NCBI RefSeq assembly: GCF_018860635.1
Contig: NZ_JAHKPT010000030.1
Coordinates: 1 to 64,000, forward strand
Direction of reading: 5' to 3'
Source: Aliiglaciecola lipolytica
Lineage (GTDB): Bacteria > Pseudomonadota > Gammaproteobacteria > Enterobacterales > Alteromonadaceae
DNA: 64,000 nt
Shown: one piece after another, positions 9,109 to 64,000 of the stretch
How the letters are laid out: the number at the start of each line of letters is the position of its first letter
Numbering within the stretch: position 1 is the stretch's first letter
Notes under the pieces: model-generated
What the model saw: only the letters and a program-made list of their open reading frames with translations
Database searches by the model: none
Told to the model about the DNA's origin: nothing
Program-made: the position numbers and the translations under genes

Positions 9109-9741
9109 CCATGGCCTAAAGGCCATGCTACAGGGTTGGGATTGTAGGCGGGTGCTTTAGCCCCGCGATGATGGTTTTTTGTGTCTATGGCCTAAAGACC
9201 ATGCTACAGGGGGGATTGTAGGTGGGGGCTTTAGCCCCGCGATGGTGGTTTTTTTGTGTCTATGGCCTAAAGACCATGCTTCAGGGGTGATTGTAGGTGG
9301 GTGCTTTAGCCCCGCGATGGTGGTTTTTTGTGTCTATGGCCTAAAGACCATGCTACAGGGGTGATTGTAGGCGGGTGCTTTAGCCCCGCGCAGTTGCGCG
9401 ACCTTCCATGGGCCTAAAGACCATGTTACGGGAAGAATGGCTCTTGTAGGTGGGTGCTTTAGCCCCGCGCAGTTGCGCGACCTTCCATGGGCCTAAAGAC
9501 CATGTTACGGGAAGAATGGCTCTTGTAGGCGGGTGTTTTAACCCCGCGCAGTTGCGCGACCTTCCATGGGCCTAAAGGCAATGCTACGGGAAGAATGGCT
9601 CTTGTAGGTGGGGGTTTTAACCCCGCGCGGCGACCTTCCATGGCCTAAAGGCCATGCTACGGGAAGAATGGCTCTTGTAGGCGGGTGTTTTAACCCCGCG
9701 CAGTTGCGCGACCTTCCATGGCCTAAAGACCATGCTACAGG
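9109..9741. repeat. REP/BIME array 3 (two unit types, about 75 and 79 bp)
   Basis: About nine A modules (near 9110, 9185, 9261, 9336, 9406, 9486, 9565, 9638 and 9717) alternate with eight B modules (near 9143, 9219, 9293, 9368, 9446, 9526, 9605 and 9676). The first half uses short spacers containing GATGGTGGTTTTTTGTGTC. The second half uses spacers with CAGTTGCGCGACCTTCC and GGGAAGAATGGCTC. In several second-half units the B stem GCT/AGC has become GTT/AAC, a paired change that keeps the hairpin. No protein is encoded: short open frames here are by-products of the repetition. It separates the amine operon from the DUF2780-like gene. Confidence 0.87.
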
Positions 9742-33958: not shown

Positions 33959-34067
33959 ATTTGCTGCAAATAACACCTTCTATTCTGTATCACTTTGCAT
34001 TTCTCAATACTTTCTGTTTCGGAATCCTGTCCGTTTAGCAACACCAACTTATGTTAAACCTTGAAAA

Positions 34068-34203
34068 CCTGCGGGGTCAGAGCCATAGATTTAGAACTGC
34101 GGGGGCAGAGCCAATGATTTGAACCTGCGGGGTCAGAGCCATTGATTTAAACTTGCGGGATCAAAACCATTGATTTTATTTCAACGGCTCTGACCCCTTT
34201 GAT
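34068..34203. repeat. GGGGTCAGAGCC repeat cluster
   Basis: Four direct copies of about 28 bp built on CTGCGGGGTCAGAGCCATTG (starting near 34069, 34098, 34125 and 34153, the last one decayed), then one inverted copy GGCTCTGACCCC at 34185-34196. First and last copies can pair into a long hairpin. It lies between the TonB receptor terminator and the stop of the DUF885 gene. It differs from the GTAG-headed REP modules elsewhere in the window. The GGGGTCAGAGCC/GGCTCTGACCCC motif recurs, to my knowledge, in many gammaproteobacterial intergenic regions near REP-type transposases, but no transposase is present here. Confidence 0.75.
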
Positions 34204-52557: not shown

Positions 52558-54696
52558 ATGAAACTAAACAATAGAAATAAAATTGCAGTTCTCATAAGTG
52601 GGTTGTTGAGCTTTTCTACTCTAAATGCAAGCGCGGCAAGCAGCGGCCTTTTGGGGCTTAATCTTGAAAAAGTCACAGCAATTACAGATGTCTCAGAATT
52701 GACAACATCTTTGGGATTGCCAGAGCTTCCAGTGGTTAATAGCATCTTAGCAATGGATAATGAAATTTTAATCCAAGGCGGTGATATTGCGGTACTCAAC
52801 GATTTAGTTAATTTAGTTGGTGGATTGGTTACCCACGAATTGCCGTTGGTCGGAGGAATTGGTGTACGAGTTTCTGATTTGCAATTGGAGCTGCTTAAAA
52901 GTCTACCTGCTCTGATTACAATTACTGAAAATCAACCTCTTTTTACTGCTGGTGCCCTTGATAATTGCCTAGTGTATGGAAGTCATGTTGTTGACCTAGA
53001 AAAAAATAAGGTGAGCTGGAACTTATATAATGCCCGTGACATGAATACTAATGTCGACGAAATGAGTTTCACTTGGCCTACAAGTTTGGGCAACATCAAA
53101 TCGGTTAAATTCAATGGTACAACTGTGTTTTGGAGCTTGTTTGGCCGTCAAAACGGAGAGTTAACCCTAGATTCTTCTTGGTTAAGTCGTTACGCAAAAA
53201 TGAACGCCTTTGATGATGCAAAAGTTGAATTAACTTTCTCCCGTAATGGTACAGAAAATTATCAACAAAACGACTTTTCAATGGACGTTTCGTTTACCCA
53301 AAATTGTAGTCGTGACCTAGTGAAAGGATACGACACTCAAGCCAATGAAGGCGATAGCAACAGCTACTATGTAAACACCATTGGTGCTGATGAGTTACAT
53401 GACAATGGTATTACCGGTAAAGACATTACCGTTGCGGTTATCGATAGTGGTGTATGGGCGAGTCACAAAGCGCTAAAAAATGACACCTACGATAATCCTA
53501 GAATTACAGCTGCTTTTGATGCAATTGAAAATCAGGAATTACAACCAGAAGATATGACGGATGAAAATAGTCATGGAACACATATTTCTGGGATCATTGC
53601 CAACAGCGACCATGCAGTCGTTGATGGACAGATGCGCAGTTATTATCAAGGGGTTGCTCCAGACGCAAACCTAGTGGTGATTAAAGCGTTCTATGAAGAT
53701 GGCCATAGTACTTATTTAGATGCACTTAGAGCGATTCAATATATTGCTGATAATCACGAAGAACTTAATATTCGAGTTGTGAATTTATCCTTTGGTGCGC
53801 CGCCACGTTCGAATTACTGGGCGGATCCAATCAATCAAGCGATCATGAAATTATGGGAAGAAGACATTGTAGTGGTAACCTCTGCTGGTAACACTGGACC
53901 GGCGGCAATGACTATCGGTGTGCCTGCCAATGTTCCTTATGTTATTAGTGTTGGCGCAATAACTGACAACTACACGCAAGATAATCCTCATGATGATGAG
54001 TTACTTTCATTCTCATCTCAAGGTCCAACGCACGAAGCTTTTGTTAAGCCCGATTTGGTTGCGCCAGGTGGACATATATTTAGCTTAGCTAATGAAGATA
54101 TGTATGTGCCTAATAAATTTCCGCAATATATGGTTGGAAATGATCGCTTTATTATGTCTGGTACGTCACAAGCGTCCGGTGTGGTAAGTGGGATAGTGGC
54201 GTTAATGCTGCAAAACGATCCGAGTTTAAGTGCTAACGATGTGAAGTGCCGCTTAATGAGCAGTACTACCATGGCGCAGTTATCAAATGGGCAACTTGCT
54301 TACAGCCCCTTCCAACAAGGTTCAGGTAGTGTAAATGCTGTTAAAGCGGTTGAATCGACTGCTATGGGATGCGCTAACAATGGCCTGGACATAGCTGCTG
54401 ATCTAAGTGGTGAACAACACTATATGGGCGCTGCTCGTAAAGATGAAAATGGCAACTATTACATCGAAGGTTTTGAATTTGAGGTTTGGGAAGAAGCTTT
54501 CATTTGGGAAGAAGCCTTCATTTGGGAAGAAGCTTTCATCTGGGAAGAGGCTTTCATTTGGGAAGAAGCTTTCATCTGGGAAGAGGCTTTCATTTGGGAA
54601 GAAGCGTTCATCTGGGAAGAAGCTTTCATTTGGGAAGAGGCTTTCATTTGGGAAGAAGCATACGTGAACCAAGAAAACTTTTTGTTGCAAGAATAA
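52558..54696 (+). CDS. secreted S8 (subtilisin-like) serine peptidase with WEEAFI repeat tail
   Basis: A 712-residue exported subtilase. Signal peptide (about 1-27), an N-terminal region of about 250 residues with no family recognised (partly prodomain), then the S8 domain with the intact triad Asp296 (VAVIDSGVW), His339 (NSHGTHISG) and Ser537 (SGTSQASG), plus the oxyanion Asn in SAGNTGPA (about 445). The C-terminus (residues 644-703) is ten tandem hexapeptides, nine WEEAFI and one WEEAYV, followed by NQENFLLQE. The repeat is perfect at the protein level while codons vary, so it is under selection. It may be an adhesive or self-assembling tail or a sorting/autoinhibitory element; no precedent is known to me. 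A terminator follows. Confidence 0.9.
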   Translation: MKLNNRNKIAVLISGLLSFSTLNASAASSGLLGLNLEKVTAITDVSELTTSLGLPELPVVNSILAMDNEILIQGGDIAVLNDLVNLVGGLVTHELPLVGGIGVRVSDLQLELLKSLPALITITENQPLFTAGALDNCLVYGSHVVDLEKNKVSWNLYNARDMNTNVDEMSFTWPTSLGNIKSVKFNGTTVFWSLFGRQNGELTLDSSWLSRYAKMNAFDDAKVELTFSRNGTENYQQNDFSMDVSFTQNCSRDLVKGYDTQANEGDSNSYYVNTIGADELHDNGITGKDITVAVIDSGVWASHKALKNDTYDNPRITAAFDAIENQELQPEDMTDENSHGTHISGIIANSDHAVVDGQMRSYYQGVAPDANLVVIKAFYEDGHSTYLDALRAIQYIADNHEELNIRVVNLSFGAPPRSNYWADPINQAIMKLWEEDIVVVTSAGNTGPAAMTIGVPANVPYVISVGAITDNYTQDNPHDDELLSFSSQGPTHEAFVKPDLVAPGGHIFSLANEDMYVPNKFPQYMVGNDRFIMSGTSQASGVVSGIVALMLQNDPSLSANDVKCRLMSSTTMAQLSNGQLAYSPFQQGSGSVNAVKAVESTAMGCANNGLDIAADLSGEQHYMGAARKDENGNYYIEGFEFEVWEEAFIWEEAFIWEEAFIWEEAFIWEEAFIWEEAFIWEEAFIWEEAFIWEEAFIWEEAYVNQENFLLQE
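54487..54666 (+). repeat. ten 18-bp tandem repeats encoding WEEAFI
   Basis: Ten consecutive 18-bp units in phase with the subtilase reading frame. Units differ only at wobble positions (GAA/GAG, GCT/GCC/GCG, ATT/ATC) apart from the last. All six frames are open across the array, which produces several spurious open frames. Confidence 0.97.
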
Positions 54697-54716
54697 TCCT
54701 ATTTACTTAATACCTT

Positions 54717-54758
54717 CAGCCCCTCAGAGTTTATCTTTGCAGGGGCTGAGTTGTTTTT
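54717..54758 (+). terminator. Rho-independent terminator of the subtilase gene
   Basis: CAGCCCCT, 16-base loop, AGGGGCTG, then GAGTTGTTTTTTAT: an 8-bp GC-rich stem and T tract about 20 bp after the stop codon. Confidence 0.8.
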
Positions 54759-54944: not shown

Positions 54945-57900
54945 ATGTTGAAAAGAGGAATATTGGGTTATTTGTTTTTTCTGTTATTAAGTAGCAGTGC
55001 AGTTGCCGCAGATGCTCCTAATTTCAATTTCTCCTCAGACGATTTAACTAAGCAGCTAGCTCAAAAAAGTGTACGACAGATATACCACGATAGTACTGGC
55101 TATATGTGGATAGTTACCCAAGTAGGCGTCAGTCGTTACGATGGGTATCAATTGTTACGTTTCGTTCATGATCCTCGAAATGATACATCTCTTAGTTCGG
55201 ATAACGCCTTTGCAATTATTGAAGATCACCAAAAGCGTTTGTGGATAGCCACTGACGGTGGTGGGCTTAACTTGTTCAACGCTGCCAAACAAACGTTTAC
55301 AGCTTGGACAGAAGCCGATAATTCTGCTTCTGCACCCACATCAAATAGACTTCAAACGTTATTCTTAGACTCCCAAAATTTTATTTGGATTGGTTATCGA
55401 AATGGTAATTTTAGCCGTTTTAATCCTGATGACATGATTTTTGAGCATTTTAATACCCGAGAGCTTCTACCTGAGCTTGAAAAAGATGCCTCTATTACAT
55501 CCATTGTTGAAGATGAAGAGTACATTTGGCTTGCCACCAATGGAAATGGTTTAATTAAATTCCACAAGCAAAAGCAAACCGTAGAGCGATTATTTTCGGG
55601 GCCAAATTCAACATTTTTTAGTAACTCGTTAAAGCAACTATTTGTTGATGCCCAACAAAGGTTGTGGATAGCCAGCCAAGACGCTGGTGTGATAGTTGCC
55701 GATCCTAAAAAATTAAAGTTCTCTAATTGGCAACATCATGAAAATCTAAAACATAGTTTACCTTCCAATCTTGCTTATGCGATTTTTCAGGACCACCGTC
55801 AACGTATCTGGATTGGCACCGATGCTGGCGTTGCGCTTTGGGATGGCAAAGATGGTTTTGACACTTTTACAACCGAAGATGGGGTGACCGATAATATCAT
55901 CTTGTCAATTCAGCAAGATTCTACTGGGTTAATTTGGCTGGGTACCTTTAACGGTATTACCAAAACCATTGAAGTACCCTTTGAGCATATAGCGAAAGGA
56001 TTAGCGAATAACGTTGTTTTAGGATTTGCTGAAACCCATGCAAGTGATGGTGTATCGTCAATTTGGATAGCCAGTTATAGTGGGTTGACACAGCTAGATG
56101 CGAACGGAGAAGTAATTCAAATCATCAATAAAGAAACTCAACCAGCGTTACGGGACGCAAGAGTTACAGCGGTTCTTGGTGAAAATAATATATTGTGGTT
56201 CGGGACTCGGGGGTCGGGGTTGGGAAGACTCAATGTCGATAACAATCAAATAGAGTTCTTTTCCCATGATCCCGCAAATCCTGATAGCCTAAGTTTCAAT
56301 GGTGTCACCAGCGTTTTAGCCGATAATGCGGGCAATATTTGGGTAGGAACCTTTGGTGGTGGCTTAAATTATTTGCCTGCGGGAAGCGATCAATTTGTGC
56401 ATTATCGGCATGATGAAAATGACCCAGAAAGCATAAATAGTGATCGGGTTTTGGCTATTTATCAATTGCTTGATGGCACTATCGCTGTTGGCACTGTGTC
56501 CGGTATCAATTTACTTGATTTGGCTGACAGTAAATTTCAACGTATTGAGCATATTCCTGAGGATATTAATAGTTTGTCCGCTGCGACGGCATGGACCTTT
56601 TATCAAGATTCAAAAGCACAATTGTGGGTTGGCACTCAGGGGGGCGGGTTAAATAAATGGCTGCCTGAAGATATGCAAGCAAACAACAATAACTTTACAC
56701 ACTATGACAGTTTTAGTGGTCTTCCAAGCAGTCATATTTATGCAGTTTTAGATGATAACAATGGCAACCTTTGGTTAAGTAGTACTGCAGGGTTAACTCG
56801 GTTAAATGTCGAATCAGGTAAAACAAGACATTTTGATAGTTCTCAAGGATTAAAAGAAAGCGAATTTAACTATGGTGCGGGCTTTAAAGATAGTAACGGG
56901 TTTATGTATTTTGGTGGTATCACTGGCTTTATTCGTTTTCATCCCGACCAGATAAAAGACAGTTCAGTGGTACCTCCTGTGGTGGTGGTTAGAATCAAAA
57001 AATTGAATGAACAAGTTTGGTTTGATGTGCCTTATCAGCAGTTACAGCAGCTAGAATTAGACTACAAAGATTATTTTATTTCATTTGAATTTGCAGCCCT
57101 TGACTACAATGCGCCGGGGCTCAACGAGTATCGATATAAATTAGACGGACTTGATTCCGATTGGATTGAACTAGAAAATCGACGCATTGCAACATTCACC
57201 AATTTACCGGCTGGAAACTACACACTTAAAGTGCAGGCGAGTAATAACCAAGGATTGTGGAATACAGAAGGTATTGTATTGCCGATAAATGTGCTCCCTC
57301 CACCTTGGAAAACAATGTGGGCTTACAGCTTGTATGCGCTCATTGTGATTCTAATTGTGCTAAATACTATGTGGCGCTACCGACTTAAACGTTTGGCCGA
57401 GATCCAGCAACTGATTGACCTAGAAGAGAAGGTTGAAGAACGTACCAAAGAGTTACGACATGCCAATGCGCAACTTGAAACCAGTATGCAAGAAACAGAA
57501 AAAGCCAGAAAGTTAGCAGAACAAGCCAGTAAAGAGAAAAGTGATTTCTTAGCTATCATGAGTCACGAAATTCGCACTCCAATGAATGGTGTACTGGGCA
57601 TGACAGAAGTATTGTTAAGCTCTGATCTTAAACCTAAACAACAGCATTTTGCCCAATTGGTGTATCGTTCGGGGCGGTTGCTTCTCGATTTACTCAACAA
57701 TATTTTAGATTTTTCCAAGCTTGAAGCCGGTAAAGCGACTCTGGAGTCAGTGCCAGTTGATCTTGAGGCTTTGGTTGAAGAGGTGTGTGATTTGTTTAGT
57801 GAGTCGGCCTATAACAAAGGCTTGTACGTAAACGCTATTCTATCTCCAGATCCTCTCCCTGAAGTTTACGCCGACCCAGCTAGATTACGACAAATCATTG

Positions 57901-59468
57901 CAAACTTAACCAGTAACGCGATTAAGTTTACAGAGCAAGGCGAAGTGAATGTCAGTATTAGGCGTGTTCCTTGTTATACCTCCCATGCAGATTCTTCGGA
58001 AGCGCCCAATAATTACAGTGGTTTTGAAATAAGCATTCAAGATACTGGTATAGGTATGGCACCTGATCGACAACAGAAAGTCTTTGAAATGTTTACCCAA
58101 GCAGATGCCTCTACCACCCGAAAATACGGCGGGACAGGATTAGGCCTAGCGATTTGTCGTCAGCTTACCACGTTAATGGGCGGTAACATTGATGTGCAAT
58201 CTACACTAGGGCAAGGCAGTACATTCAGCCTCGAAGTTGATTTGCCATTAACCCACAACCAGGTTATCGAGTATACGCCAGAGACTCGTTTTCCCACTGT
58301 ACATTTGGTGAATCTTAACGGTGGTTTAGGACTGGCAGTTACTAATATGTTGAGCAAATTAGGTGTTAAAACCTTACATGTGCAACGAGTTAACGGACAA
58401 TTAGCCTCTGCAAAGGATGGTTTATGGATCAGCCTTAGTGAATATGAGGGGGCAATACAAGAAGCGCAAATCCCATTGCAAAAATGGATATGCTTGTTGC
58501 CCTCCTCACAGTGGCAAGAAAACGATAAACGCAATATTTTGCCGCTACCTATTCATTTGAGTGAACTACAGGCAAGTTTACATAAAGCCATAGGTCTTAA
58601 AAGTGCAGATCGTCAGCACAGCAATAACGACTACCCTAATCATCAGAAGTTTAATGCGAATATCTTGGTAGCAGAAGATAGTTTAACCAATCAAGAGGTA
58701 GCGAAAAGCATGTTAGGCATGCTTGGTTGTGAAACATGGTTGGCAGATAATGGCGCAGAAGCGGTTGAACAAATAAATCTACGTCAACCTGATTTAGTGT
58801 TGATGGATTGCCAAATGCCTATTATGGATGGCTACAAGGCCACCATGGAGATCAGGAAAAACTGGCCGGAGATTCCAATTATTGCACTAACTGCTGGTAT
58901 GGGAGATGATTTACGCCAACAATGTTTAGGGGCAGGCATGAATGATGTTATGACTAAGCCCTTTTCATTGCGAGAACTTGAACATACTTTGACGCGCTTT
59001 TTAGGCTCTGTAAAACAACCTCAGGTCAATGATTCACCAGACAGTGAGCACGATAGTCTAAATGCCCCTCATAGTGGGAATAGCGTAGCCAGCGATGAAG
59101 AGCCAGAATCGGAGTTAATCGATATGGCAACGGTGGATACGTTATTGAAAATTAGTCGAGATACCGGAAATCCAGTATTTGTAAAAGTGTTGGATGCATT
59201 TACCCAAGAAGCTGAAAAATTAATCACACAGCTGTTTACACAAGTGAATAGTCCAGACATGGATTTGCATGAGGTTGCAGAAATTGCACATGCCTTAAAA
59301 TCGATGTCAGGAAACTCTGGCGCTAAGGCATTGTATCAAATATGTCAAACCTTAGAGAGCATGTCAAAACAGCAACAATCGGAAGGAATCGATACTTTAG
59401 CACACAGTATACAAGCTACTTTTTTACAAAGTTGCGAGCAGTTGGAGACATTCAGAAATGTCAGTTGA
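54945..59468 (+). CDS. hybrid sensor kinase: periplasmic propeller, HisKA-HATPase, REC and HPt
   Basis: A 1507-residue hybrid two-component protein of the BvgS/HTCS-like propeller type. Signal peptide (about 1-22); about 14 Reg_prop beta-propeller repeats from 35 to 690 (IIEDHQKRLWIATDGGGLNLF, IQQDSTGLIWLGTFNG, VLADNAGNIWVGTFGGGLN, VLDDNNGNLWLSSTAG); a Y_Y_Y domain (about 700-785, EYRYKLDGLDSDW); one transmembrane helix (about 790-810) and a coiled coil. The kinase has its H-box SHEIRTPMNG (His near 873), N-box and G-box (GGTGLGLAI). A C-terminal receiver (phosphoacceptor Asp in VLMDCQMP, about 1286) and an HPt domain (His in AHALKSMSGN, about 1448) allow an internal phosphorelay. The next gene overlaps its end by 11 bp. 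Propeller sensors commonly detect oligosaccharides, but the ligand here is unknown. Confidence 0.9.
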   Translation: MLKRGILGYLFFLLLSSSAVAADAPNFNFSSDDLTKQLAQKSVRQIYHDSTGYMWIVTQVGVSRYDGYQLLRFVHDPRNDTSLSSDNAFAIIEDHQKRLWIATDGGGLNLFNAAKQTFTAWTEADNSASAPTSNRLQTLFLDSQNFIWIGYRNGNFSRFNPDDMIFEHFNTRELLPELEKDASITSIVEDEEYIWLATNGNGLIKFHKQKQTVERLFSGPNSTFFSNSLKQLFVDAQQRLWIASQDAGVIVADPKKLKFSNWQHHENLKHSLPSNLAYAIFQDHRQRIWIGTDAGVALWDGKDGFDTFTTEDGVTDNIILSIQQDSTGLIWLGTFNGITKTIEVPFEHIAKGLANNVVLGFAETHASDGVSSIWIASYSGLTQLDANGEVIQIINKETQPALRDARVTAVLGENNILWFGTRGSGLGRLNVDNNQIEFFSHDPANPDSLSFNGVTSVLADNAGNIWVGTFGGGLNYLPAGSDQFVHYRHDENDPESINSDRVLAIYQLLDGTIAVGTVSGINLLDLADSKFQRIEHIPEDINSLSAATAWTFYQDSKAQLWVGTQGGGLNKWLPEDMQANNNNFTHYDSFSGLPSSHIYAVLDDNNGNLWLSSTAGLTRLNVESGKTRHFDSSQGLKESEFNYGAGFKDSNGFMYFGGITGFIRFHPDQIKDSSVVPPVVVVRIKKLNEQVWFDVPYQQLQQLELDYKDYFISFEFAALDYNAPGLNEYRYKLDGLDSDWIELENRRIATFTNLPAGNYTLKVQASNNQGLWNTEGIVLPINVLPPPWKTMWAYSLYALIVILIVLNTMWRYRLKRLAEIQQLIDLEEKVEERTKELRHANAQLETSMQETEKARKLAEQASKEKSDFLAIMSHEIRTPMNGVLGMTEVLLSSDLKPKQQHFAQLVYRSGRLLLDLLNNILDFSKLEAGKATLESVPVDLEALVEEVCDLFSESAYNKGLYVNAILSPDPLPEVYADPARLRQIIANLTSNAIKFTEQGEVNVSIRRVPCYTSHADSSEAPNNYSGFEISIQDTGIGMAPDRQQKVFEMFTQADASTTRKYGGTGLGLAICRQLTTLMGGNIDVQSTLGQGSTFSLEVDLPLTHNQVIEYTPETRFPTVHLVNLNGGLGLAVTNMLSKLGVKTLHVQRVNGQLASAKDGLWISLSEYEGAIQEAQIPLQKWICLLPSSQWQENDKRNILPLPIHLSELQASLHKAIGLKSADRQHSNNDYPNHQKFNANILVAEDSLTNQEVAKSMLGMLGCETWLADNGAEAVEQINLRQPDLVLMDCQMPIMDGYKATMEIRKNWPEIPIIALTAGMGDDLRQQCLGAGMNDVMTKPFSLRELEHTLTRFLGSVKQPQVNDSPDSEHDSLNAPHSGNSVASDEEPESELIDMATVDTLLKISRDTGNPVFVKVLDAFTQEAEKLITQLFTQVNSPDMDLHEVAEIAHALKSMSGNSGAKALYQICQTLESMSKQQQSEGIDTLAHSIQATFLQSCEQLETFRNVS

Positions 59469-61227
59469 ATCAAAAATTAAAATTCTAGTGAGTGACGATG
59501 ATCTCACCGCGCGAATTTTAATGAAAGAAACACTTAGCAGTGAAACCATTGAAGTGCTTGAAGCCGAAAATGGGAAACGCGCTTTGGAGCAGTTTGAGAA
59601 GCACTCTCCTTCACTGATTTTGCTAGATGTTTCTATGCCAGAAATGAATGGATTTGAAGTATGCGAAAGGATCCGCAGTTTAAAAAGCGGCGAGCATGTT
59701 CCTATCATTATGGTAACAGGTTCAGATGATTTGGAGTCTATTCACCGCTCATATGCGGTAGGGGCAACTGACTTTATTGCCAAACCCATTAGATGGCCAA
59801 TTTTGGGTGAAAGAGTTAAGTACATCCTCCGTGCGAGTCAAGCCTTTGCAGATTTAGTTACGCAGCAAAAAGAACTCCATCAACTGGCTTTCTATGACAC
59901 TTTGACTGGCTTGCCTAATCGCCAATACTTAATGCAAGATTTGCAACGTTTTCTTGCTTTAGCTCAGCGTAAACAACATCAAGCCGCAATGTTATTTATC
60001 GATCTTGATCGGTTCAAGCGGATAAACGACACCATGGGGCACAGTAATGGCGACAAATTACTGCGCAAAGTGGCTCATCGCCTTCAGACTAATTTACGGG
60101 ATAGTGACGTTTTTGCCCGCGTTGGGCAGAGTCTCTCTTTAAATCAACCACAACTTTCCAGTTTTGGTGGGGATGAATTTACTATTTTTTTAAATGGGCT
60201 AAACGATGCGAATGAGGCCACCTTAGTTGCTGAAAGAGTTATTCGTAGCTTCAGTAAGCCGTTTCAACTAGAACAGTTTGAAGTGGTAATTACACCCAGT
60301 ATTGGTATTTCGATGTTCCCTAATGATGGAGAAGACGCCGAGACCTTACTTAAAAATGCAGACACAGCGATGTACTCTGCCAAACAGGCAGGCCGCTGTT
60401 GTTATAAGTTTTACCGTGACTCAATGAATGCTAAAGCTGCCGCTCGATTACAACTCGAGCAAGATCTACGTCAAGCACTCAACGCCGGTGAAATCATACC
60501 TTTTTACCAACCACAAGTTTGTGCGCAAACGGGACACATACTGGGAGTTGAAGCGCTCGTAAGGTGGTTGCCAGCAAATGGAGGAATGATTCCGCCAGAT
60601 GAATTTATCGCTATTGCCGAAGAGACCGGTTTAATTAATGTTTTGGGACAGCTTGTATTAGAGCAAAGTTGCCAGCAAGCCAAAATCTGGATGAACAACA
60701 ATACGCCTGTCAGAGTGGCGGTGAATGTCTCAGGTCATCAATTTAGACAACATAATTTTACCGAAATCGTAGCTGAGGCCCTGCGTAACAGTGGATTACC
60801 AGCAGAGTTACTCGAATTGGAGTTAACTGAATCGGTGATTATGAGTGATGCCGAAGAAAATATTGCACGCTTGATTGAATTAAAAACCTTAGGGGTAACG
60901 TTAGCCGTCGATGATTTTGGAACGGGTTACTCGTCGTTGAGTTACTTGAAAAAATTCCCTATTGATATATTAAAAATTGATCGCTCATTTATGTGTGATT
61001 TGGACTCTGCACCTGATGATGTGGCGATTGTGGAAGCTATTTTAGCCCTTGCTCAAAGCTTGAATCTCGGTGTGATCGCCGAAGGTATCGAAGATGCTGG
61101 GCAAATAGAAATATTAAAGGATAGTAAACATTTATTGTTGCAAGGCTATTTATTCTCACGGCCATTGGCAGCTGAATATATAGCTCCTTTGTTAACTCAG
61201 AACTTTACTCACCTTATGCAAAAATAA
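59458..61227 (+). CDS. response regulator with GGDEF and EAL domains
   Basis: A 589-residue cytoplasmic protein. An N-terminal receiver (about 1-125, phosphoacceptor Asp in LILLDVSMPEMNG) is followed by a GGDEF domain (about 140-320) with intact SSFGGDEFTIF (about 235-240) and an EAL domain (about 330-580) with EALVRW, ELTESVIM, DDFGTGYSSL and IDRSF, the residues needed for phosphodiesterase activity. It is therefore potentially bifunctional, making or breaking c-di-GMP according to its phosphorylation by the adjacent hybrid kinase. The GGDEF domain has a 13-residue insertion between ARVG and GGDEF, where most proteins read RxGGDEF directly. Its start codon lies inside the kinase gene (11-bp overlap), with GGAG upstream, implying translational coupling. 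Confidence 0.92.
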   Translation: MSVESKIKILVSDDDLTARILMKETLSSETIEVLEAENGKRALEQFEKHSPSLILLDVSMPEMNGFEVCERIRSLKSGEHVPIIMVTGSDDLESIHRSYAVGATDFIAKPIRWPILGERVKYILRASQAFADLVTQQKELHQLAFYDTLTGLPNRQYLMQDLQRFLALAQRKQHQAAMLFIDLDRFKRINDTMGHSNGDKLLRKVAHRLQTNLRDSDVFARVGQSLSLNQPQLSSFGGDEFTIFLNGLNDANEATLVAERVIRSFSKPFQLEQFEVVITPSIGISMFPNDGEDAETLLKNADTAMYSAKQAGRCCYKFYRDSMNAKAAARLQLEQDLRQALNAGEIIPFYQPQVCAQTGHILGVEALVRWLPANGGMIPPDEFIAIAEETGLINVLGQLVLEQSCQQAKIWMNNNTPVRVAVNVSGHQFRQHNFTEIVAEALRNSGLPAELLELELTESVIMSDAEENIARLIELKTLGVTLAVDDFGTGYSSLSYLKKFPIDILKIDRSFMCDLDSAPDDVAIVEAILALAQSLNLGVIAEGIEDAGQIEILKDSKHLLLQGYLFSRPLAAEYIAPLLTQNFTHLMQK

Positions 61228-61238
61228 GAATAATAACA

Positions 61239-64000
61239 ATGAAACCTTGCAAGTCTGATGAAGCTGTTGAAGAAAATAAAGAGCAAATAACACTATTTAT
61301 TGATGGTGATTTAGCCGCAGATTCAGCATATTCCGCGGCGATTTCTGCGCTCCAACACACCTTTGCTGCAAAGTACGATTTCGTTATTACAGCACTGGCT
61401 GAGCAGAGTTTGCCAACGACAATGTTATTGCTTTGTCAAAATGAAGAGCACGGGACTTCTTTGAGCAACAGATTTAACTTGCATAGCTTGCAGGTATTTT
61501 GGTTGCCACAAGACCCCTCATATCAACCGTTAAAACCATTAATAAACGGGCACTGGTATTTAGACTGGAAACAACCACCTACAGTCTTGCCAGTACTGTC
61601 GTTAATACAACAGCAGCATCGATTGCTGGCGGATTTCTCCACCACCAAGCAAAAACTATCGATGTTAACTGAGTGTTTAGGGGAAATGTCTTTGACCCTA
61701 AATTCACATGGCCAAATAATTGAAATGAATGCGCCTTTACTAAAGGTTATGGGGGAGTCTGGGAAGTCAGTAATCGGTCAAACATTGCTTTCGTGTCTGA
61801 ACATTCCCTCTTCAATCGCTAAACGTCGAATGACACAAACTTTGGCTGATTTAAGTCGTACTCACTCAATGACTAGGTTGCCACCATTTCCTGTTCAATT
61901 GAAAGATGCAGTGGTTATGCTCGATGGCTTTGTTGGCCCTTTTAATCATGATGACACTTTATTGATTTTACGGCAGATCGCTAGTTGGCAGAATCAGGAG
62001 TGGTTAGAACAGTCGGCCGCAAAAAATACACCGGTAACGCTTTTGCTGGTGAATCCCGACGATTTTGCGGCATTTAATCAACAATATGGCCGCGATATAG
62101 GCGATCAAGTTTTAGCTGAAATTATACAATGTATGTCGGATTTATTGCGTTCCGCTGATTTTGCTAGCCGCTTTAGCGGAGCTGTATTCGCTGCTCATCT
62201 ACCAGAAACGAATGAACAACAAGGTCAGGTTTTAGCATCTCGCATGCGTGAAATGCTGCGTAAAAAACGCTTTTCAGCTAAAAAAGTTAATTTGGATTTT
62301 AGTTTTGGCTTAGCCACTATTGAGTCAGAAGAACAGCTTAACGAACATTCTCCGTTAGAGCTTTTTCGACGAGCAAATGCCGCGCTACAAGCCGCGCGAA
62401 GCATCGGAGGCGGCACATTAGTTTGCTGGCAACCGAAATTCGACGCTAACATATTGGCTAATTTAGATCGCATGAGTGGTAAGTTTTCTGATGCCGCCGA
62501 TGACGACTTCAAACTCATTACGCTGCAATGGGATATTATTCGTATTATCGGCAGTACACACGATTTGCAAAGCTTTTCTGAGCAAGTCTGTCAGCTCATC
62601 AGCAGCGGAATGTCATCGATGTATGCCGGATTATATTTAACCAAAGGCGATGGTTTAATTAATTTATCTTGCGCAAGTGAGCCTAAAGTAGAGGTGAAAA
62701 GTGTCCATCAATGGGTTACCACTAATATCCAGGTCGATAATCTAGATAATTTGACCGCTGTACCTTTACTTGAGCTGAACGCCACTACGCTTCAAGCTTC
62801 TGTACCTTTAGTGACTCGCGGTAAATGCCTAGGGGTTATTGTCTTGCGTTGGCATAGCAACCAGCAACCTGTGGCTAAAAAATACACTGAATTACTACAA
62901 CAAGTCTCGGCGAACTTAGGTACTGCCATTGATCGAATTATATTGTTGGATCAAAGTCATAAACAGGGCAACAGCCCAGCGAAAAGTGAACCTGATAATC
63001 ATCAAACCCACGAGTTGTTATTTGAATCTGCTGCGATGCGCACCTTGATGCAGCAGGTACAATTAGTAGCCCCAACAGATGCATCTGTGTTGCTTATCGG
63101 TGAATCAGGAACTGGTAAAGAAGTGATAGCCAGACAAATCCATAATCACGGATTACAGCCCAATAAACCCTTTATCACCGTCGATTGCAGTACCATAGTT
63201 AAACATCTGATTGAGAGTGAGCTTTTTGGGCATAGAAAAGGAGCCTTCACTGGAGCCACCAGTGATCAACCAGGAATGATTGCGCAAGCTGACGGTGGTA
63301 CCTTGTTTCTAGATGAGGTAGGGGAGTTACCACTGGACATACAATCAAAATTATTGCGCTTCGTACAAGAGAAAACCTTTGTTGCCGTGGGCGATCAAAG
63401 GGTAAGGAAAGTGGATGTTAGACTGGTATTGGCAACCAATCGCAATTTATCAGATGAGGTGGCCGCAGGTCGTTTTCGTGCTGATCTTTACTACCGAATT
63501 AACGTTTTCACGTTAAATTTGCCTCCTTTGAATCAGCGTGGCGAGGACACCTTGCTGTTAGCGCGACATTTTTTGAAGAAGTTTAGTCAGCAATACAATA
63601 AACCAATTCTCGATATTTCGTCATCAGCAGTCGAGACATTACGTCGTTACAGTTGGCCTGGCAACGTAAGAGAACTTCGAAACTGTATTATGCGGGCTGT
63701 TATAACTTGCCCCAGTGACTATTTAGAATCTGAGCACTTGAGTCTACAAGCGCCATCTTTAGAGCTGCAGCCCTCAGCTTCTCATGCCACGCCGAGTTTA
63801 CAGACTGTAGAGCTTACCCAAGATGACGACGAAGAGCTGTTGCCCGCTTTAACCGTGTTGCTAAACAAAGTTGTCTGTCTGGCCATTCAACAACCAACAT
63901 CTTTTCCGGTCACTGTTTGGTTAGAAAAACTATGGATTGAATTGTGTCTACAAAAATGGGGAAGCCTTTATCAAGTCGCACTCAAAGTTGAGCAGTCAGA
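61239..64000 (+). CDS. sigma-54 activator with PAS, degenerate GGDEF and GAF domains (3' end beyond window)
   Basis: An open frame of at least 920 codons starting 11 bp after the c-di-GMP enzyme gene and running off the window edge. I read by translation: an N-terminal segment, a PAS-like region (about 150-200, LNSHGQIIEMNAPLLKVMGE), a GGDEF-fold region (about 265-400) whose signature is SGAVF at about 311-315 instead of GGDEF, a GAF-like region (about 430-570), and a sigma-54 AAA+ domain with Walker A GESGTGKE (about 620), GAFTGA (about 667), LFLDEVGELP (Walker B) and WPGNVREL (about 807). GAFTGA is intact, so it should remodel sigma-54 polymerase. The degenerate GGDEF should not make c-di-GMP but might bind GTP or c-di-GMP. 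The C-terminal DNA-binding domain lies beyond the window. Confidence 0.85.
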   Translation, partial: MKPCKSDEAVEENKEQITLFIDGDLAADSAYSAAISALQHTFAAKYDFVITALAEQSLPTTMLLLCQNEEHGTSLSNRFNLHSLQVFWLPQDPSYQPLKPLINGHWYLDWKQPPTVLPVLSLIQQQHRLLADFSTTKQKLSMLTECLGEMSLTLNSHGQIIEMNAPLLKVMGESGKSVIGQTLLSCLNIPSSIAKRRMTQTLADLSRTHSMTRLPPFPVQLKDAVVMLDGFVGPFNHDDTLLILRQIASWQNQEWLEQSAAKNTPVTLLLVNPDDFAAFNQQYGRDIGDQVLAEIIQCMSDLLRSADFASRFSGAVFAAHLPETNEQQGQVLASRMREMLRKKRFSAKKVNLDFSFGLATIESEEQLNEHSPLELFRRANAALQAARSIGGGTLVCWQPKFDANILANLDRMSGKFSDAADDDFKLITLQWDIIRIIGSTHDLQSFSEQVCQLISSGMSSMYAGLYLTKGDGLINLSCASEPKVEVKSVHQWVTTNIQVDNLDNLTAVPLLELNATTLQASVPLVTRGKCLGVIVLRWHSNQQPVAKKYTELLQQVSANLGTAIDRIILLDQSHKQGNSPAKSEPDNHQTHELLFESAAMRTLMQQVQLVAPTDASVLLIGESGTGKEVIARQIHNHGLQPNKPFITVDCSTIVKHLIESELFGHRKGAFTGATSDQPGMIAQADGGTLFLDEVGELPLDIQSKLLRFVQEKTFVAVGDQRVRKVDVRLVLATNRNLSDEVAAGRFRADLYYRINVFTLNLPPLNQRGEDTLLLARHFLKKFSQQYNKPILDISSSAVETLRRYSWPGNVRELRNCIMRAVITCPSDYLESEHLSLQAPSLELQPSASHATPSLQTVELTQDDDEELLPALTVLLNKVVCLAIQQPTSFPVTVWLEKLWIELCLQKWGSLYQVALKVEQS

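Follow-up and report, generated by a model that had tools for sequence, protein, structure and literature searches.

What is the function of a tandem array of tryptophan (Trp) hexapeptides close to the C terminus of an exported-type protease? This question is raised by a 64,000-nucleotide (nt) stretch of Aliiglaciecola lipolytica DNA (contig NZ_JAHKPT010000030.1, positions 1 to 64,000 of the forward strand; here called the window), in which the gene of a 712-amino-acid (aa) S8 (subtilase) peptidase encodes ten such units. The main clue is the gene directly downstream (54945-59468), which encodes a propeller sensor; array genes and sensor genes were found to be linked. Encoded beside this sensor, the array is a good candidate for the sensor's natural signal. 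Our favoured reading, to which we give about an even chance of being correct, is that an exported subtilase, a tandem Trp array and a membrane sensor make up a module of three parts, in which the array supplies the signal outside the cytoplasm. The best reading of the array itself is that it would act as a ligand for the neighbouring sensor or as the precursor of a peptide ligand cut by the subtilase.

Trp arrays in the window peptidase and its relatives

The end of the window peptidase gene contains the following features.
54487 to 54666, + strand: Trp array of ten hexapeptides (unit listing and Tandem Repeats Finder; predicted disordered).
54667 to 54693, + strand: C-terminal cap NQENFLLQE, which, in a comparison of tails, replaces the NxWV(D/E)(Q/P)(E/Q) of many other members.

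Amino acids 644 to 703 of the peptidase consist of nine copies of WEEAFI and a last unit, WEEAYV, encoded by ten 18-nt units. An independent call by Tandem Repeats Finder (54485-54659, period 18, 9.7 copies, score 294) agreed with this listing and with an earlier note on this DNA, which had described ten hexapeptides, identical except the last, at aa 644 to 703. Units 1 to 9 revealed eight departures from the consensus, of four distinct kinds (GAG, GCC, GCG, and ATC), and all eight were synonymous, with 2.67 synonymous sites among the 18 of each unit. The chance of synonymous-only change is about 2e-7 if the departures are eight independent events, a figure that is too strong because units duplicate, and about 5e-4 if the four distinct kinds are counted. 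Since the departures in units 1 to 9 are all synonymous, conservation acts on the peptide rather than on the DNA, as the earlier note had proposed; its view that the tail is under selection and likely functional rather than noise holds as well. Ten units are also present in a second genome of the species (G002, on one contig) and in a congener (G006, 91% identity). The window array is therefore no assembly accident, an explanation that the note itself had put forward for checking.

AlphaFold2 modelling of the window tail from a shallow alignment gave predicted local distance difference test (pLDDT) scores of 22 to 45 and no secondary structure, which is weak evidence because such repeats are hard for AlphaFold2. 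The array is probably an unfolded, separable module. The repeat, the selection on the peptide and the likely function of the tail stand from the interpretation given earlier, and the regular strand or helix that it had suggested is not borne out by the model; its "binding element" and "substrate-like element" readings are possible, and no observation in this analysis hints at the calcium binding, adhesion or self-assembly that it had also listed. Two structural candidates were rejected: a left-handed beta-helix hexapeptide repeat, for which there was no such Pfam match and no structure in the modelled tail, and any regular secondary structure or solenoid, none of which was predicted by AlphaFold2.

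To the earlier note, a repeat of this kind in S8 peptidases was new; many of these enzymes, however, carry related Trp arrays. A second S8 peptidase in the window's genome carries thirteen 11-residue units (EGSIWDGTTAL and similar). S8 relatives at E<=1e-60 were found in 69 of 196 genomes of the family Alteromonadaceae; in farther relatives (63 to 78% identity to the window protein), WEEAFM, WDEAFM or GFIWRE units take the place of WEEAFI. One of these farther relatives, near a contig end (L036), has two units only. The tails of 104 distinct proteins mostly consist of a linker (CANxGLDIxxDLxGxxHYxGPAR..GNYYI), a Trp array and a short cap, e.g., NxWVDQE. In a raw DNA scan of 369 genomes of the class for TGG every 18 nt, low-complexity repeats dominated the matches, which came from 161 genomes, and the reversed control pattern had matches in many as well; one hit, at a contig end (L149/L156), proved to be a genuine array that shares the C-terminal cap.

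A genome-collection scan for S8 relatives, of which the best 80 of 513 were analysed (the scope of all loci from other phyla and of the Bacillota controls below), revealed arrays in further Gammaproteobacteria and in Acidobacteriota (VVWGTS, AFVWDD), Chloroflexota (YLWSGG, TYWDQ) and Actinomycetota (SSWYA, SQWAG, STWTG, ASRWG). At least three equal Trp spacings were counted in 115 of 135 distinct S8 tails, a proportion that is not the frequency among S8 peptidases, as the sample was picked by similarity to the window protein. Proteins lacking the GTSxA motif were excluded and identical tails counted once; array-less Bacillota proteins mostly collapsed in this set because they end soon after GTSxA and their identical tails merge. 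The unit length was 6 in 63 of the 115 arrays, 11 in 34, 12 in 7, 5 in 4, and 10, 14, 16 or 17 in the remaining 7, and the unit number across arrays ranged from 2 to >20. Relative to Trp, the commonest residues are D/E at -4, G/A at -3 and I/L/V/M at -1. Arrays are uniform internally and differ from each other around this short Trp-centred core. The ratio of nonsynonymous to synonymous change (pN/pS) between adjacent units was 0.46 over all arrays, and in period-11 tails (n=35) neighbouring units differed in 16 to 28% of comparisons at positions -3 to +3 around Trp versus 33 to 72% elsewhere. Two S8 open reading frames (ORFs) were noted for their tails: a 707-aa ORF (L220) ends in hexapeptides without Trp (GVILGD repeated), a possible Trp-less array variant, and in a 1005-aa ORF (L111) a 17-residue unit of the DGVIWHNDSVKSDNRMT type recurs >20 times over about 500 residues.

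In Haliea relatives, the S8 peptidase itself has no array, and a separate small gene downstream encodes an exported-type protein built from Trp units 12 or 13 residues long, such as repeats of AYKWGVRSFSDQ. The earlier note had asked whether homologues commonly lack the tail; the Haliea-group peptidases do lack it, yet the gene of a distinct secreted protein with the Trp array follows immediately. The Haliea-type S8 was present in 77 of 140 genomes of the family of one such genome, and a class-wide search with it among 369 genomes found only the window's own gene. Fifty loci out of the 77 genomes were examined, and the separate array gene was seen in 46 of them (28 of a first 30 and 18 of a further 20). 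In the first set, the stretch ends within nine of the 28 array genes, and two of these nine (L271 and L273) show the leader and first Trp units only; the two exceptions are L259, which ends 0.5 kb past the S8 gene, and L264, array-less in its 1.5-kb flank. In the further set, all 17 loci with full flanks had the order GGDEF-EAL gene, S8 gene, array protein gene and propeller kinase gene. The other three lie at a contig edge: L274 shows the array and then ends, and L279 and L291 end after S8. At the place of L176 (the same as L243, Luminiphilus), between the S8 and propeller kinase genes, the leader and Trp units are in different frames, and the array gene there therefore looks broken or misread.

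The separate array proteins start, judged by eye, with a signal-peptide-like sequence followed by near-identical tandem copies, as is expected of an exported pheromone precursor. In period-13 arrays (n=35, 4 to 21 copies), neighbouring units differed in 2 to 10% of comparisons at positions -3 to +3 versus 11 to 28% elsewhere, the Trp offset being invariant by construction; these 35 were drawn from the 46 separate arrays after exclusion of short, cut and period-12 arrays and one cut period-13 array. With regard to a processing site between copies, Q was the commonest residue at offset -5 in all 35, and 30 of the 35 proteins end 3 residues past the last Trp. The hexapeptide arrays are spacer-free. 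An AlphaFold2 model of one separate array protein, built from a shallow alignment, had a mean pLDDT of 43.6 and a few low-confidence C-terminal strands and, as a prediction, offers no evidence of a fold. The existence of separate array proteins indicates that the array is a module of its own and not a fold-stabilising end of the protease.

Sensor genes beside the arrays

The window contains the following features downstream of the peptidase gene.
54945 to 59468, + strand: propeller sensor of 1507 aa with Reg_prop, Y_Y_Y, HisKA, HATPase_c, Response_reg and Hpt domains (Pfam).
59458 to 61227, + strand: response regulator with GGDEF and EAL domains, 589 aa, overlapping the end of the sensor gene (Pfam; the same kind of neighbour in other loci).
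61239 to 64000, + strand: GGDEF/sigma-54 activator-type regulator, running off the window (cluster present in 17 loci including the window; domains taken from two relatives).
54715 to 54750, + strand: terminator-like hairpin, then UUGUUUUUU, between the peptidase and sensor genes (dG -23.5 kcal/mol, z -6.4); a consensus terminator scan did not list it.

The product of the gene downstream of the peptidase, on which the earlier note is silent, combines propeller repeats, a Y_Y_Y domain and an output domain, and its solved relatives are 4a2l (E 3.9e-85) and 3v9f (E 2.8e-82). In Alteromonadaceae, the next gene could be seen for 77 array-bearing S8 genes, after exclusion of three array genes at a locus edge, of S8 ORFs of <400 aa and of identical ends; in 51 of the 77 it is a propeller sensor gene on the same strand. 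Twenty-three of the 26 exceptions belong to one genus with large genomes and tandem S8 paralogues, in which up to five array S8 genes are clustered. Outside this genus the sensor follows in 51 of 54 cases. Three S8 genes before a sensor had been scored as array-less only because their array is irregular, has two units or is masked; among the remaining array-less S8 genes away from edges, 0 of 42 directly precede a sensor. The linkage also holds in the reverse direction: in 22 chosen genomes, 20 of 21 matches to the window propeller at E<1e-80 lie directly behind a Trp-array S8 gene, including one (G003) in which the S8 gene is cut at a contig end and the array tail is visible. Four weaker matches (E 1e-61 to 1e-75) are, by coordinates, not beside S8 genes of the family. 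This search used a protein query; a search with the PF07494 family at E 1e-8 was of no use, its model spanning just 24 positions. A propeller match was also present in the surrounding stretch of 11 of 15 gammaproteobacterial array loci listed from the genome-collection scan.

The ectodomain of these sensors is constant and the output varies between GGDEF and hybrid kinase. In two other Pfam-annotated loci the propeller is retained and the output is GGDEF, and the sensor cluster comprises members of about 1050 to 1110 aa and of about 1500 aa. In genus g13, loci L068, L069 and L071 (genomes G067, G100 and G020) contain clusters of three to five Trp-array S8 genes whose unit types differ (GSIWNE, GYLWAD, GYVWAD); each cluster is followed by a sigma-54 activator-type gene, after which the propeller sensor is next in L068 and L071 and L069 ends.

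The neighbours of array S8 genes in Acidobacteriota, Chloroflexota and Actinomycetota include genes whose products carry a MASE9 or MASE9-like membrane domain, either by itself or combined with HD-GYP, GGDEF, EAL or kinase domains. Pfam MASE9 matched the neighbours in L200, L201, L229, L217 and L226 above its cut-off and those in L204 and L207 below it, and was not listed for the neighbours in L202, L203, L205 and L221. A non-iterated MASE9-like profile with leave-one-out scoring was built from seven neighbour seeds: four above the Pfam cut-off (L200, L201, L229, L217), two just below it (L204, L207) and one without a listed MASE9 match that was chosen for its like architecture (L202). With this profile, 31 loci, including two that have no regular array (L220, L226), were scored for a MASE9-like domain at a distance of up to 2.5 kb from the S8 gene; 13 of them had one, versus 0 of 26 array-less Bacillota controls (Fisher p 9e-5).

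Peptidase architecture and the readings of the array

The window peptidase is made up of the following parts.
52558 to 54696, + strand: gene encoding the 712-aa S8 (subtilase) peptidase that bears the Trp array near its C terminus (Pfam PF00082, E 4.9e-51, aa 287-590).
52558 to 52635, + strand: putative Sec-type signal peptide, aa 1-26 (MKLNNRNK, hydrophobic stretch, ASA; by eye).
52750 to 52932, + strand: propeptide-like alpha/beta domain, about aa 65-125 (AlphaFold2 order E-H-E-E-H-E).
52972 to 53313, + strand: extra beta-rich domain, about aa 139-252, between the propeptide and the catalytic domain (AlphaFold2).
53416 to 54327, + strand: catalytic domain, aa 287-590, with the triad D296, H339 and S537 (Pfam and alignment).
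54370 to 54480, + strand: linker CANxGLDI..GNYYI, aa 605-641, starting at Cys605 (alignment).

The PF00082 match (E 4.9e-51) places the protein in Peptidase_S8. Residues D296, H339 and S537, which form the Asp-His-Ser triad, are invariant across 62 aligned sequences, and with this triad intact the subtilase is predicted to be proteolytic. Cys564 and Cys605 are invariant in the same 62 sequences, and a Cys564-Cys605 disulfide is possible. AlphaFold2 modelled the catalytic domain confidently, and the whole model matches proforms, e.g., 3afg and 3whi. Apart from this locus, the window contains tandem DNA repeats at 1-512, 9111-9738 and 34066-34176, with units of about 119, 74 to 79 and 28 nt; the first two (1-512 and 9111-9738) have stretches in common, e.g., GTAGGCGGGTGCTTTAGCCCCG.

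In the favoured reading, the array would be an unfolded string of near-identical motifs with the core [G/A]-x-[aliphatic or K/R]-W-x that is recognised by the adjoining sensor. In the window the array is a tail of the subtilase; in the Haliea relatives it is a secreted protein of its own. The sequences show an intact triad in all 62 aligned subtilases and, where arrays are separate, proteins that by eye begin like signal peptides. Synteny shows that array and sensor genes remain paired despite changing sensor type and output domains. The subtilase may then trim, release or present array units, which may bind the Reg_prop/Y_Y_Y propeller in Gammaproteobacteria or the MASE9-like domain in other phyla, and the sensor would in turn set a cyclic di-GMP (c-di-GMP) or phosphorelay output. 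This scheme has two versions, in which the array would be either cleaved into a peptide signal or kept intact as a multivalent tether; the uniformity within arrays and the difference between paralogues and species suit both.

Several observations weigh against the favoured reading. The strong terminator-like hairpin between the window genes means that a single transcript or equal expression is not implied. Next to the 23 array S8 genes of the one genus lies a gene other than the sensor, one propeller sensor (G095:C24:20413) has no adjoining array, and the Haliea-type locus L264 shows no array in its 1.5-kb flank. Array charge revealed no relation to sensor ectodomain charge (rho 0.20, p 0.20, n=43), and simple electrostatic docking is therefore unsupported. 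No MASE9-like neighbour passed in 18 of the 31 loci of other phyla. Because, of 49 Pfam MASE9 matches in these genomes, no more than 6 adjoin the S8 gene, the Bacillota controls differ in phylum and thus in more than the array alone, and kinase or receiver matches surround 6 of the 26 array-less controls, the MASE9 linkage is support and not proof. One Trp core is found across unrelated sensor domains, which favours a general binding motif; a receptor-specific signal would account for the shared core no better than such a motif does. Finally, sensor binding and array cleavage are steps that we infer.

The array could instead regulate the protease, as a substrate mimic, an autoinhibitory tail or an inhibitor in trans, with a sensor that sets the timing of protease production or is switched by what the protease produces, and that leaves the array untouched. 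The array is covalently part of the protease in most members seen, the printed tails of split-form S8 proteins retain one Trp motif (..WGVKxHxER..) resembling separate-array units, and many units contain aromatic and aliphatic residues, which subtilisins accept. Such regulation does not require a sensor neighbour, yet the linkage is strong in both directions; moreover, no contact between tail and active site was predicted (pLDDT 22-45), in a model that cannot exclude one, and array charge was not clearly related to catalytic-domain charge (rho -0.26, p 0.09). We consider this explanation unlikely. It is still less probable that the array is an element of envelope retention or adhesion, whose Trp motifs hold the protease at the cell surface, outer membrane or matrix. 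An exported-type protein with a multivalent aromatic motif of 2 to >20 units would suit this role, which leaves the sensor linkage unexplained and has to accommodate arrays in Actinomycetota, Chloroflexota and Acidobacteriota, phyla with differing envelope types. In the split form, array and protease are separate proteins, so that simple anchoring of the protease is impossible there.

Near-identical tandem cores with a conserved Trp, and a separate array protein that consists of a leader and repeats, recall a multi-core precursor of the kind found in ribosomally synthesized and post-translationally modified peptides (RiPPs), in which the Trp would be modified. No maturase-like family was present among the Pfam-annotated neighbours, not every neighbour having been scanned against maturase models, and we regard a RiPP-like precursor as very improbable. 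Neutral expansion of a functionless repeat is the explanation that we disfavour most strongly. Unit length and number do vary widely, as it would predict, but units 1 to 9 of the window change synonymously only, the pN/pS of adjacent units is 0.46 over all arrays, one group retains the array as a secreted protein in its own right, and the Trp core occurs in nearly all arrays seen, across phyla.

Comparison with known systems

The pro-subtilases ProN-Tk-SP (3afg) and pro-subtilisin E (3whi) have the same catalytic fold and propeptide as the window protein; we know of no Trp array or linked sensor for either. By its domains and sequence, the window sensor is a member of the Reg_prop/Y_Y_Y hybrids (4a2l, 3v9f) and the Reg_prop-GGDEF proteins. 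Reg_prop/Y_Y_Y and MASE9 domains feed signals into c-di-GMP and histidine kinase pathways, and few of their ligands are known. The Reg_prop hybrids of Bacteroides sense glycans and lie beside polysaccharide loci, whereas the usual neighbour of the window-type sensor is a Trp-array subtilase. Reg_prop and Y_Y_Y are described in a paper on Xanthomonas c-di-GMP proteins as "periplasmic sensor domains with unknown function" (PMC6637768), and a Lysobacter paper names Reg_prop hybrid sensors in a main text from which the words protease and subtilisin are absent (PMC8463545). The open-access literature searched contained no recognised description of Trp arrays in S8 peptidases or of an S8/Reg_prop or S8/MASE9 pair, motif words being poor search terms, and it named MASE9 in one unrelated paper only. 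Each part thus comes from a known family, and the combination is apparently undescribed in that literature. Should the array prove to be no more than a tether, the joining of a protease to a sensor through repeats would still be a design for signalling of which we found no description.

The substrate of the Myxococcus protease PopC is not a tandem array, and to our knowledge no propeller sensor adjoins it; the likeness, a loose one, is that of a secreted subtilase serving intercellular signalling. PopC is a subtilisin-like protease in C-signalling (PMC6434023). The fast-evolving VtrA/VtrC co-component resembles the window system in that a neighbour gene gives the extracytoplasmic input of a sensor, according to the abstract (PMC9214523). 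It differs in being a stable heterodimer with a folded, lipocalin-like sensor, and that abstract is without a protease or repeat array (PMC9214523).

A more specific form of the favoured reading, which we put forward tentatively, is widespread bacterial peptide signalling of the alpha-factor/Kex2 kind, in which the subtilase would cut the tail or separate array into numerous copies of lineage-specific signals that a propeller or MASE9-like sensor reads and passes on to c-di-GMP or a phosphorelay. This would explain why arrays are uniform within themselves and differ between lineages and paralogues, and it would provide a natural ligand class for Reg_prop and MASE9 sensors. If the protease does release the array as a peptide, bacterial peptide signals of one family would extend over several phyla. 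The candidate ligand is concrete and can be synthesised (WEEAFI repeats in the window), which makes the ligand question directly testable. In yeast, the alpha-factor precursor is processed by the subtilase Kex2, the cutting sites are dibasic and the receptor is a eukaryotic G protein-coupled receptor. In contrast, dibasic sites are not general in the Trp arrays, whose processing is putative; both systems combine tandem copies of a Trp-containing peptide with spacers, a subtilase and a receptor.

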